Positions 15,638 to 39,782 of a stretch of DNA of 64,000 bases are shown here, piece by piece. A program made the position numbers and the translations under genes. The stretch is from Pseudomonadota bacterium (GTDB lineage: Bacteria > Pseudomonadota > Gammaproteobacteria > Xanthomonadales > Rhodanobacteraceae), in assembly GCA_018240465.1 (NCBI GenBank), contig JAFEFS010000099.1, positions 1 through 64,000 of the forward strand. Reading direction: 5' to 3'. Position 1 is the stretch's first letter; each line of letters opens with the position of its first letter. Under the pieces are notes generated by a model. It did not search any database and was not told where the DNA came from. It saw only the letters and a list, made by a program, of their open reading frames with translations.

Positions 15638-15822
15638 ACGCCCTCCGCGATGCCGATGCACATCAAACGACCTTGATCCGAAGATCAGGTGGGAGGGCTC
15701 GCTGGTCGTCAGGCTTTCCGCACACGGCGGACATGCACACGGACTTTCGCACCGCCATCCCGGGGTCGTTTATAGGACCAAGGCGATATGTTTGGATGCG
15801 CTGTCGCACACCGCAGGGGACG
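15638..15822 (-). ncRNA. ssrS: 6S RNA
   Basis: The gap between zapA and fau is where ssrS sits across Gammaproteobacteria. On the minus strand the 5' end (CCCUGCGGUGU, around 15808-15818) pairs with the 3' end (GCAUCGCGGAGGG, around 15641-15653) to form the closing stem. The 3' half reads CACCTGATCTTCGGATCAAGG then GGCATCGCGGAGG, which parallels the E. coli 6S 3' half. The implied length of about 185 nt is right. A -10 box TAAAAT at 15830-15835 in the last codons of zapA sets the 5' end near 15822. 6S RNA mimics an open promoter and sequesters sigma-70 RNA polymerase. The ends are estimates. Confidence 0.88.
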
Positions 15823-35969: not shown

Positions 35970-37853
35970 CTAGGCGACGCGACGCTGACCGCGTTTCAGA
36001 TGCACGAGCAGCAGCGAGATCGCCGCAGGCGTGACGCCGGCGATGCGCATCGCCTGACCGACCGTCTGCGGCTGCACCGAGCGGAGTTTGTGCATGACTT
36101 CGGCGGACAGGCCATGCACCTGCGTGTAGTCGAACGCCGCCGGAATCGCGGTGTCTTCGTGCCGGCGCTGGCGTTCGATTTCCTCGTTCTGACGCTCGAG
36201 GTAGCCCGAGTATTTCGCCGTGATCTGCACCTGTTCGGCGACGCCGGCGTCGGCGACGCCGGGCCCGAGCGCCGGCACGTGCATCAACCGCGCGTAGTCG
36301 AGCTCGGGGCGGCGCAGCAGATCGAGAGCGTGCGTTTCGCGCGAAAGTTCGATGCCCAGCGTCGCATGGATTTCGCGGCCGAGCGCGTTGCCCGGCGACG
36401 CCCAGACCGCTTTCAACCGTGCGCTTTCGTTCTCGATCGCCTCGCGCTTGCGCCGGAACGCATCGTAGCGCCGCGCGTCGAGACTGCCGAGTTCGAAACC
36501 CTTGTCGCACAGGCGCAGGTCGGCGTTGTCCTCGCGCAGGTTGAGACGATACTCGGCGCGCGAGGTGAACATGCGGTACGGCTCGCGCGTACCGTTGGTG
36601 ATCAGGTCGTCGATCAGCACGCCGATGTAGGCCTCGTCGCGGCGCGGCGTCCACGACTCCCTGCCCTGCGTCGAGCGCGCGGCGTTCAGACCCGCGATCA
36701 GGCCTTGCGCGGCGGCCTCCTCGTAGCCGGTCGTGCCGTTGATCTGGCCGGCGAAGTACAGCCCCTCTATCGCCTTGGTCTCCAGCGAGGCCTTGAGGCC
36801 GCGCGGGTCGAAGTAGTCGTATTCGATCGCATAGCCAGGCCGTGTGACATGCGCGTTCTCGAGCCCCTTCATCGACCGGACCAGTTCAATCTGCACATCG
36901 AACGGCAGCGAGGTGGAAATGCCGTTCGGGTAGAACTCGGTGGTGCCCAGGCCTTCGGGTTCGAGGAAAATCTGGTGCGAAGCCTTCTCGGCGAAGCGCA
37001 CGACCTTGTCCTCGATCGACGGACAATAGCGCGGGCCGATGCCCTCGATCCTGCCTGTATACAAAGGTGAACGGTCGAGGCCGGCGCGGATGATCTCGTG
37101 CGTGCGCTCGCAGGTGTGCGTGATCCAGCAGGCCAGCTGGCGCGGATGATCCGCGGCTTCGCCCCAGAACGAGAACACCGGCATCGGCGTGTCGCCCGGC
37201 TGCTCCTGCAGCTCGGAGAAGTCGATGCTGCGGCCGTCGAGGCGCGGCGGTGTGCCGGTTTTGAGCCGGTCGACCGCGAGCGGCAGCTCGCGCATGCGCG
37301 CGGCGAGACGTTGCGCCGGCGGGTCCCCCGCGCGGCCGCCCGCGTAGTTTTCAAAACCGATGTGGATCTTGCCGGCGAGGAAGGTGCCCGCCGTCAACAC
37401 GACGCAGCGCGCACGGAAAGTCAGGCCCATCTGGGTGACCACGCCAGTCACTTTCTGCCCTTCCAGGGTCAGGTCGTCCACGGCCTGCTGGAAGATGGCC
37501 AGGTTCGGCTGGACTTCGAGGCGTTCGCGGATATCGGCCTTGTACAACGCGCGATCGGCCTGGCAGCGCGTCGCGCGCACGGCCGGACCCTTGGAAGCGT
37601 TGAGCGTGCGCCACTGGATGCCGGCGCGGTCCGCGGCCTGCGCCATCGCACCGCCGAGCGCGTCGATTTCCTTGACCAGATGTCCCTTGCCGATGCCGCC
37701 GATCGCGGGATTGCAGCTCATCTGGCCGAGCGTCTCGATGTTGTGCGTGAGCAATAGCGTGCGCGCGCCAAGGCGCGCGGAAGCCAGCGCTGCCTCGGTG
37801 CCGGCGTGACCGCCGCCAATCACGATGACGTCGAATTGCGGGTCGAAATTCAT
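35970..37853 (-). CDS. mnmG: tRNA uridine-5-carboxymethylaminomethyl modification enzyme MnmG (GidA)
   Basis: 627 residues, full length. The FAD-binding Rossmann motif [19 protein letters not shown] is at 11-29. Conserved blocks include [45 protein letters not shown] and [22 protein letters not shown], with a C-terminal helical domain ending near [37 protein letters not shown]. With MnmE it installs the cmnm5 group on wobble U34 of several tRNAs. Transcribed alone from a strong extended -10 promoter. No rsmG or parAB follows, unlike the origin-proximal layout of many bacteria. Confidence 0.98.
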
Positions 37854-37906: not shown

Positions 37907-38325
37907 TCAGTGGCCAATTGGCATGATCCCTGCTTCTACTCGCGAGCACTTCGAAAGACCGCACAGCCGCCGCTTCAAGCGCGCTGACAATTGGGCTCAG
38001 GGGCCGATTCGCGAAAACTCGAAGGACGCAGCAAGGAGTAGCGAAGGGCTTTCAGGAAGAAAGGCTGGCGCCCGGCGGTCTTAGGAACAGGGGGAATCCA
38101 AGAGGACCGTATGCCGGGCGCCAGTAACCCTATATTCTGCAGCGGGATTTCCGCCTCAAACCTCTGGGAGCAAAGCCCAGCGACCCCACTGTGCCCGTAG
38201 CATAGCTCGGGACATGCTATAAAAACGTGAAGACTTCCACAGCGTGGCGAATCGGCTCGCGCCGCCCCTGCCCCCTTCGCAATTCGTCCAATCCTGACCT
38301 TCCACGTCACCTTTGGCGGAATCTT
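37907..38325. other. Unexplained intergenic region with a large hairpin
   Basis: No gene is supported here. The strongest element is a stem at 38065-38124: CTGGCGCCCGGC pairs exactly with GCCGGGCGCCAG (12 bp), followed inward by GGTC/GACC (4 bp) after a GTAT bulge, closing a 24-base loop. There is no T-run on either strand, so it is not a simple terminator. A minus-strand frame of 121 codons (37975-38340) spans it but is Pro/Arg/Ser-rich without family resemblance. The stretch could be a non-coding RNA, a repeat, or a remnant. Confidence 0.5.
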
Positions 38326-38351
38326 CGCGGTTCCCGACACGTGGAACCGCG
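38326..38351. promoter_or_regulatory. Candidate enhancer (activator) site: 9-bp perfect dyad
   Basis: CGCGGTTCC (38326-38334) and GGAACCGCG (38343-38351) are exact inverted repeats with an 8-base centre. The dyad lies about 125-150 bases upstream of the predicted sigma-54 start, the usual distance for a bacterial enhancer-binding protein. It matches no activator consensus that I know well. Confidence 0.55.
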
Positions 38352-38389
38352 GAAATTGTACCTTGGCGCGTTCAAAACAGAAAATTCCG

Positions 38390-38403
38390 TGACGCAGGCG
38401 TCA
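38390..38403. promoter_or_regulatory. Second dyad between enhancer and promoter
   Basis: TGACGC-AG-GCGTCA is a 6-bp perfect inverted repeat about 70-85 bases upstream of the predicted +1. It could be a second protein site. Confidence 0.35.
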
Positions 38404-38446
38404 GAACGGATTGGTGCCGGCGTCATTTCCCCAGAAAGGCGTTCAG

Positions 38447-38464
38447 TTGGCACGGTGATTGCTT
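38447..38464 (+). promoter_or_regulatory. Sigma-54 (RpoN) promoter
   Basis: TTGGCACGGTGATTGCTT matches the -24/-12 consensus (TGGCAC, N5, TTGCW) completely. The invariant GG (38449-38450) and GC (38461-38462) are separated by exactly 10 bases. The predicted start near 38474 leaves a 40-nt leader before the small gene at 38514. Confidence 0.85.
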
Positions 38465-38513
38465 CTCACCAATGCACCCGATTCCGGGGCCGAAGAACTC
38501 GCAGGGGGATGTC

Positions 38514-38717
38514 ATGTTGAACGAACAACACGCCAGCATCAGCAGTGTGCAATATCTGCGGCACGACCTGATGATCGAATTGGGACGCCTGGAAATGGTG
38601 ATGGAAGACTACGACCAGTACGCGACCGACAACGACAGGCAGATCACGATCGAGAATCTGCAGAACAAGTACACACACGTCAGCGCCGCATTGAACAAGC
38701 TGCCGCTGGACCGCTGA
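38514..38717 (+). CDS. Small protein under a sigma-54 promoter, unknown function
   Basis: 67 residues, no signal peptide and no membrane segment. It is strongly helical and acidic: MLNEQHASISSVQYLRHDLMIELGRLEMVMEDYDQYATDNDRQITIENLQNKYTHVSAALNKLPLDR is best read as one or two amphipathic helices joined by a DND turn. The ribosome site AGGGGG lies 5 bases before the ATG. I do not recognise a family. The clean sigma-54 promoter and upstream dyad show it is under control of an enhancer-binding protein, as for flagellar, pilus, nitrogen or phage-shock genes, but which one is unknown. It is monocistronic: the next gene has its own -10 element. Confidence 0.75.
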   Translation: MLNEQHASISSVQYLRHDLMIELGRLEMVMEDYDQYATDNDRQITIENLQNKYTHVSAALNKLPLDR

Positions 38718-38785: not shown

Positions 38786-38791
38786 TATGAT
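38786..38791 (+). promoter_or_regulatory. Candidate leaderless promoter of the Thr/Ser dehydratase gene
   Basis: TATGAT ends 7 bases before the ATG at 38799, which would place +1 at the start codon. It argues against the ATG at 38787, which overlaps the hexamer. Confidence 0.45.
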
Positions 38792-38798
38792 CGCGCCC

Positions 38799-39782
38799 AT
38801 GCCAGAATCAATCCAATCGCCGCCGTCCGCAATTGCGGCTTTTCCCGGCTTCGCCGACATCGAACACGCCGCGCAGCGCATCGCCATGCATGCGGCGCGC
38901 ACTCCCATCGTCGGCGCGCGCAGCATCGATGCACTCGCTCGAACATCGCTCGCGTTCAAGTGCGAGAACTTTCAGCGCACCGGCGCGTTCAAGTTTCGCG
39001 GCGCGTGCAATGCGGTCTGGTCGTTGACCGACGCCGACGCCAAGCGCGGTGTGGTCACGCACTCCTCGGGCAATCACGGCGCCGCGCTCGCGCTCGCCGC
39101 ACACACACGCGGCATCCACGCGCACGTCGTCGTGCCCGAAGGTGCGGTGAAGTCCAAGCTTGCCGCGATCGCGGCCTACGGCGCGACCCTGCACTATTGC
39201 GCGCCGACGATCGCCGCACGCGAAGCCGCGGCGGCGAAGGTGCAGGCGGAAACCGGCGCCGAACTCGTGCATCCCTATACCGACGTGCGCGTCATCGCCG
39301 GCCAGGGCACGGCCGCACTCGAGCTGCTGCGTGAAGTCGGCGACCTCGATGCGCTGGTCGCGCCGGTCGGCGGCGGCGGCCTGATCGGCGGCAGCGCGAT
39401 CGCGGCCAAGGCCCTCAACCCCGGCATCGAAATCTACGCAGCCGAACCCGCGGGCGCCGCCGATGCCTGCGAGTCCCTGCGCCGCGGCACACGCGTCACC
39501 GACATGGTGCCGGACACCGTCTGCGACGGCCTGCGCGGCATGATCGGCGAAATCAACCTCGCCTTGCTGCGCGATAACGGTGTGCGCGTGCTGACGGTCG
39601 AGGATGCGCAGACGATCGCGGCGATGCGCCTGATCCTTGAGCGCATGAAGATCGTCGTCGAGCCCTCATCGGCGACCGCGCTTGCCGCCGTGCTCGCCCA
39701 TCCCGGGATTTTTCACGGGCGCCGCGTCGGCATCATCCTCTCCGGCGGCAACGTCGATCTGGATCGACTGCCTTGGCCCTGA
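38799..39782 (+). CDS. Threonine/serine dehydratase-like PLP enzyme
   Basis: 327 residues, fold type II PLP enzyme. The PLP lysine lies in RTGAFKFRGACNAV; THSSGNHGAALALAA binds substrate and PVGGGGLIGGSAIAAKAL is the phosphate loop. The last block LSGGNVDLDRL is also conserved. There is no C-terminal ACT regulatory domain, so it corresponds to the catabolic (TdcB-like) or serine-racemase/dehydratase size class rather than to IlvA. The likely reaction is Thr (or Ser) to 2-oxobutyrate (or pyruvate) and ammonia. The metal-site pattern of serine racemase could not be judged. The gene is followed by a KSI-like protein 20 bases later. Confidence 0.9.
   Translation: MPESIQSPPSAIAAFPGFADIEHAAQRIAMHAARTPIVGARSIDALARTSLAFKCENFQRTGAFKFRGACNAVWSLTDADAKRGVVTHSSGNHGAALALAAHTRGIHAHVVVPEGAVKSKLAAIAAYGATLHYCAPTIAAREAAAAKVQAETGAELVHPYTDVRVIAGQGTAALELLREVGDLDALVAPVGGGGLIGGSAIAAKALNPGIEIYAAEPAGAADACESLRRGTRVTDMVPDTVCDGLRGMIGEINLALLRDNGVRVLTVEDAQTIAAMRLILERMKIVVEPSSATALAAVLAHPGIFHGRRVGIILSGGNVDLDRLPWP

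Follow-up and report, generated by a model that had tools for sequence, protein, structure and literature searches.

Closest described systems and organization of the locus

Sigma-54 promoters require a site for an activator, which for pilA is known to be PilR. Several sRNAs are likewise sigma-54 dependent, including CrcZ and CrcY (with CbrB as activator), GlmY and GlmZ (GlrR), and Qrr (LuxO), and some of these act as decoys. CrcZ is covered in PMC8657755. In P. aeruginosa, PilS-PilR responds to pilin levels, and the PilR site of that organism has been described differently from the TGAC-N7-GTCA sequence discussed below (PMC6058289). The sRNA sX13 (RF02232) of Xanthomonas represses pilus mRNAs with 4G motifs through C-rich loops (PMC3771888). 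A further Xanthomonadaceae sRNA of unknown function, asX1 (RF02235), is listed among Xanthomonas sRNAs and is expressed in Xylella (PMC12189769, PMC4652430); the accessible sections of these two papers give neither a promoter nor a function for it, and no promoter class, activator or function was found in the accessible portions of the literature searched.

The window, i.e., the whole stretch of 64,000 nucleotides analyzed, contains a locus with partial likeness to each of these systems. Homologies and conserved motifs make it probable that two sigma-54 promoters controlled by PilS-PilR yield an asX1-family sRNA together with a small helical protein, in parallel with pilin. Both promoters (P1 and P2), the protein, the RNA structure and a palindromic box are conserved among relatives, and the box is common to the locus and pilA promoters. 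The mnmG cluster lies directly upstream of the locus, in divergent orientation, in most relatives examined and forms its conserved left border. The features are as follows.

35970..37853, minus strand: mnmG (gidA), from the ORF table, divergent neighbor of the locus
37918..37934, plus strand: P1, second putative sigma-54 promoter, TTGGCATGATCCCTGCT, with the -24 GG at 37920-37921 and the -12 GC at 37932-37933
37943..38031, plus strand: diverged asX1-family sRNA, located by covariance model, with a three-way junction and a CAGGGG loop
38065..38124, no strand assigned: RNA-B, a near-invariant hairpin with loop GGAACAGGGGGAATCC and compensatory stem changes across relatives
38295..38309, no strand assigned: proposed PilR box, perfect TGAC-N7-GTCA (TGACCTTCCACGTCA), a conserved palindrome also found at pilA promoters
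38326..38351, no strand assigned: 9-bp dyad CGCGGTTCC-N8-GGAACCGCG, private to the window
38390..38403, no strand assigned: TGACGC-AG-GCGTCA (TGAC-N6-GTCA), probable second PilR site, read directly from the sequence
38447..38463, plus strand: P2, putative sigma-54 promoter of the small gene, TTGGCACGGTGATTGCT, with GG at 38449-38450 and GC at 38461-38462 separated by ten bases
38503..38509, plus strand: Shine-Dalgarno-like AGGGGGA upstream of the 67-codon ORF
38514..38717, plus strand: 67-codon ORF for a helical-hairpin protein of a conserved family, core LRHDLMIELGRLEMAMED

The locus resembles PilS-PilR/sigma-54 control of pilA in that a sigma-54 promoter is preceded by TGAC-N7-GTCA, as in the pilA genes of relatives, but what is controlled here is an sRNA and a small protein in place of pilin, and a single box apparently serves both promoters, acting on P1 from the downstream side. 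With CrcZ/CrcY, GlmY/GlmZ and Qrr it shares the production of a regulatory RNA from a -24/-12 promoter with one dedicated activator, whereas the RNA family, activator, enhancer and neighboring genes all differ. The likeness to asX1 comprises the locus at the side of mnmG, a sigma-54 element just before the RNA, the three-way-junction fold, the CAGGGG loop, and RNA-B and the box downstream. Unlike asX1, the window RNA falls below the Rfam gathering score, has no terminator directly after it and precedes P2 and the small-protein gene, a gene missing from most genomes with asX1 in the sister family (f2). The fourth system, sX13, is also a structured Xanthomonadales sRNA tied to pilus genes, and its C-rich loops complement the G-rich loop of asX1; its separate locus and opposite loop chemistry mark it as a proposed partner rather than a relative.

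Two conserved -24/-12 elements

As a bare pattern, P2 is unexceptional, with 24 occurrences of TGGCAYGNNNNNTGC in the 3.67-Mb genome versus 43 for the reversed control, so the case for it had to rest on conservation. An earlier note on this DNA had placed a -24/-12 promoter with the GG-N10-GC arrangement ahead of the small gene. The element is present as proposed, and its counterpart precedes the homologous gene by 46 to 74 bp in every one of the 42 related loci aligned for promoter counts (families f1 and f4), compared with 0.13 expected in shuffled sequences. A P2-type element is also retained in remote families in which the gene sits away from mnmG. This conservation supports the assignment of P2 as a sigma-54 promoter. 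The interval of the earlier note, 38326-38717, was correct but covered only half of the locus, as P1, which lies between mnmG and P2 in the same orientation as P2, was missed.

P1 is weaker than P2, with CATG in place of CACG. A -24/-12 element at the P1 position (score of at least 10) is found 400 to 780 bp upstream of the small gene in 34 of the 42 relatives, against an expectation of 0.9.

A diverged asX1-family sRNA

The sRNA begins at the predicted start site of P1. Its fold is a three-way junction of 24 pairs, 16 of which show compensatory two-sided changes, and covariation reaches 0.379, compared with 0.207 ± 0.014 in shuffled alignments (none of 500 shuffles attained the observed value) and at most 0.171 when pairing partners were slid. 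A covariance model (R1) built from relatives, with window-like members left out, has its best window match at 37943-38031 (26.3 bits, E = 7e-4) and also retrieves genuine f2 asX1 loci absent from its training set. The Rfam model (RF02235) has no match above its gathering threshold of 70 bits in the window or its genome; it weakly matches the sRNA locus in several relatives (e.g., 40.3 bits in G108), and f1 members other than the window score about 34 to 49 bits at the sRNA position.

Homology by both sequence and structure to asX1 was found with R1, and the position beside mnmG with RNA-B downstream is also that of asX1. In the f2 sister family, each of the 12 asX1 genes inspected is preceded by a -24/-12 element ~30 bp upstream of the RNA, the end of the element lying ~15 nt before it. 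Given the R1 matches and these f2 elements, the window RNA is, as judged by homology, a diverged asX1, and sigma-54 dependence is probable for asX1 as a whole. The loop is G-rich (CAGGGG) in nearly all members. asX1 would thus gain a likely promoter (sigma-54), a likely activator (PilR) and, in the family sister to f2, a conserved small-protein partner.

Two variations in layout were seen. A sub-clade of the window's genus (L011, L013, L021, L024 and L028) has lost asX1 and P1 and has kept RNA-B, P2 and the small gene. Loci L054 to L063 of f2 have another strong inverted repeat, flanked by T-rich sequence, between asX1 and RNA-B, which suggests a terminator serving a converging transcript.

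The RNA-B hairpin

RNA-B occurs with asX1, persists where asX1 has been lost and has no family in Rfam. Its loop, GGAACAGGGGGAATCC, is nearly invariant and is one G shorter in the sub-clade without asX1, and most f2 loci have an entirely different stem in which pairing is preserved. Pairs that wobble on one strand only favor the minus strand by 13 to 2 (p = 0.004), mainly in f2, whereas several f1 genera have a plus-strand terminator after RNA-B and the plus-strand fold is slightly more stable. Read on the minus strand, RNA-B has a C-rich loop that matches the complement of the asX1 loop along ~9 nt in most f2 genomes and usually along 6 to 7 nt in f1. The idea that RNA-B is, in every genome, simply a segment of the P1 transcript was rejected, as many loci have a terminator directly after asX1, RNA-B persists without asX1, and the f2 wobble pairs favor the minus strand.

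The conserved box and its position

The earlier note had proposed as enhancer the 9-bp dyad CGCGGTTCC-N8-GGAACCGCG, which is found in the window only: in every relative, the best match has at least 4 mismatches out of 18, and the dyad is not considered functional. A dyad scan upstream of P2 instead gave TGACG-N5-CGTCA, and no second conserved palindrome came close to it in strength. With up to one mismatch, TGAC-N7-GTCA is present in 32/42 f1/f4 loci (3.6 expected) and, downstream of asX1, in 11 of 12 f2 loci (0.8 expected). In other genera a perfect box lies 60 to 70 bp before P2, and the window has a dyad near there, TGACGC-AG-GCGTCA, about 45 bp before the P2 start. This second, 6-bp dyad of the earlier note does exist, and it is reread here as a one-base-short version of the conserved box at the usual promoter distance.

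The box also stands at pilA. Among eight pilA-type sigma-54 promoters, six have a perfect TGAC-N7-GTCA 116 to 170 bp upstream (0.02 expected), and three of these six belong to the window's own genus. In three remote f5 genomes, the homologue is not beside mnmG and is without asX1 and RNA-B and yet has both the -24/-12 element and a perfect box, so the link between protein, sigma-54 and box is independent of the locus. The box alone is common in the window's genome, with about 40 TGACS-N5-CGTCA sites, and none of the others inspected has a good sigma-54 site. In the sub-clade that has lost asX1, P2 is kept and the box is degenerate.

Probable activator of the locus

The activators encoded in the genome are NtrC, PilR, one further response regulator, two AcoR-like proteins and an NtrX-like protein without a recognizable GAFTGA motif. 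A candidate site common to pilA and the locus was found, with a perfect copy at 38295, and because the box also precedes pilA sigma-54 promoters, TGAC-N7-GTCA is most likely a PilR site. As the earlier note had suggested, the locus appears to belong to the regulon of a single activator. The note's remark that none is encoded close by holds for the window; PilS-PilR, the best candidate, is encoded elsewhere in the genome, on contig C86. Xylella, which carries and expresses asX1 (PMC12189769), is reported to have NtrC and PilR as its only activators (PMC3224663), and this combination fits the assignment to PilR. Counting against the assignment are the abundance of the box in the window's genome, the degenerate box of the sub-clade, the failure to detect PilR in one relative with the small gene (G013) and the lack of any pilin matching PF00114 in the window's draft genome.

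A two-promoter locus served by a different activator, either NtrC or the response regulator whose gene follows ppc (contig C62), and responding to nitrogen or another signal, is an improbable alternative. NtrC occurs in nearly all genomes with the locus, a co-occurrence that first favored it; the C62 regulator is also widespread; and G013, which has the small gene and is 94% complete, shows only NtrC and an NtrX-like protein, no PilR having been detected there. However, a classical NtrC-type site, GCACCATCAAGGTGC (GCACC-N5-GGTGC), sits before the sigma-54 promoter of glnK in a relative (G083, L149). The TGCACC-N5-GGTGCA sequence of the NtrC regulon was not found at the locus, where the conserved box is TGAC-N7-GTCA, the sequence present at pilA promoters. 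NtrC is unlikely as the activator because its classical site differs, and the glnK site of G083 can serve as a reference for NtrC sites within the order. The C62 regulator was likewise rejected: next to its gene, no box accompanied by a good sigma-54 site was found.

Still less likely is that the palindrome belongs to a regulator outside the sigma-54 system that acts on pilA, the small gene and a promoter for RNA-B on the minus strand, the sites serving sigma-54 at P1 and P2 being elsewhere. The f2 box does lie 66 to 81 bp beyond RNA-B with no P2 nearby, and the f2 wobble pairs favor a minus-strand RNA-B. Against this, box and -24/-12 element occur together in the three remote genomes without RNA-B or asX1, and P2, as a sigma-54 promoter, needs an activator site, for which the dyad scan upstream found no comparable alternative among conserved palindromes.

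The 67-residue protein

Homologues of the small protein were found in 67 of 197 related genomes with a single-sequence search and in 115 of 398 genomes of the order with a profile of 22 sequences, which places them mostly in family f1 and also in f4, f5, f11 and two f2 genomes. Conservation is at the residue level across about 30 genera and several families, length varies by whole codons, and dN/dS between the window protein and its nearest homologue is ~0.23. AlphaFold2 predicts a two-helix hairpin (residues 3-36 and 39-62; pLDDT of 84.7). The earlier note could not place the protein in any family, and this holds for Pfam, in which the best match (Enkurin, 17 bits) is below its cutoff of 23.6, and for NCBIfam, with no match. 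The protein is real, conserved and outside curated families. A fold search of the PDB returned generic helical hairpins only, none with an E value below 1, and assignment of a function from the fold was abandoned. That the frame is untranslated and the conserved unit is RNA alone is extremely improbable. The frame is small and without family or solved-fold match, but its conservation by residue, whole-codon length variation, dN/dS, confidently predicted hairpin and ribosome-binding site all argue for translation.

The remote genomes G131 and G147 (L222 to L225) each encode the small protein twice; in each, one copy has a sigma-54 element and a perfect box and the other has neither.

Proposed mechanism and implications

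With PilR as activator, we infer that PilR phosphorylated by PilS would bind TGAC-N7-GTCA between the two transcripts and that transcription would depend on RpoN and PilR. P2, to the right of the box, would be activated at an ordinary distance, giving the 67-residue protein, and P1, to the left, would be activated from a box roughly 200 to 350 bp downstream of its start, giving the asX1-family sRNA. Use of a downstream box by P1, which would be unusual, is suggested because f2 keeps the box without P2 and mostly without the small gene. If PilR drives both promoters, both products should rise with pilin (PilA).

An sX13 homologue is present in the window's genome (contig C74; 55.9 bits, above the Rfam cutoff), with CCCC and UCCCCCU in its loops. 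The asX1 CAGGGG loop could pair with such C-rich-loop RNAs, whether sX13 or, if it is read from the minus strand, RNA-B, and pairing would relieve the repression of pilus genes. The complementarity between the asX1 loop and its partner RNAs extends over 4 to 10 nt, and that with sX13 over only 4 to 6 nt. The simplest idea suggested by these loops is that PilR-induced asX1 acts as a sponge and takes up C-rich-loop RNAs; it is speculative, as is the role of the small protein, which may act in the PilR response as an adaptor or feedback factor. The proposal in full, a single PilR enhancer between two sigma-54 promoters with asX1 sequestering both sX13 and a convergent RNA-B and so extending the sensing of pilin by PilS to post-transcriptional regulation of the entire pilus machinery, is tentative and, taken as a whole, rather doubtful.

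If PilS-PilR does act at this locus, it controls a regulatory RNA in addition to pilin, and the proposed PilR box would permit regulon prediction across the order, plant pathogens included. The pair of asX1 and sX13 offers a testable idea for the post-transcriptional tuning of pilus genes.

Directly 3' of the small gene lies a serine/threonine dehydratase gene (window positions 38787-39782, plus strand), which is near asX1 in f2 as well; a threonine dehydratase gene of Xylella, XF1819, is RpoN dependent (PMC3224663). Elsewhere in the window, 6S RNA (RF00013, 77.6 bits) is encoded at 15638-15822 on the minus strand and is the sole Rfam match at the gathering threshold.
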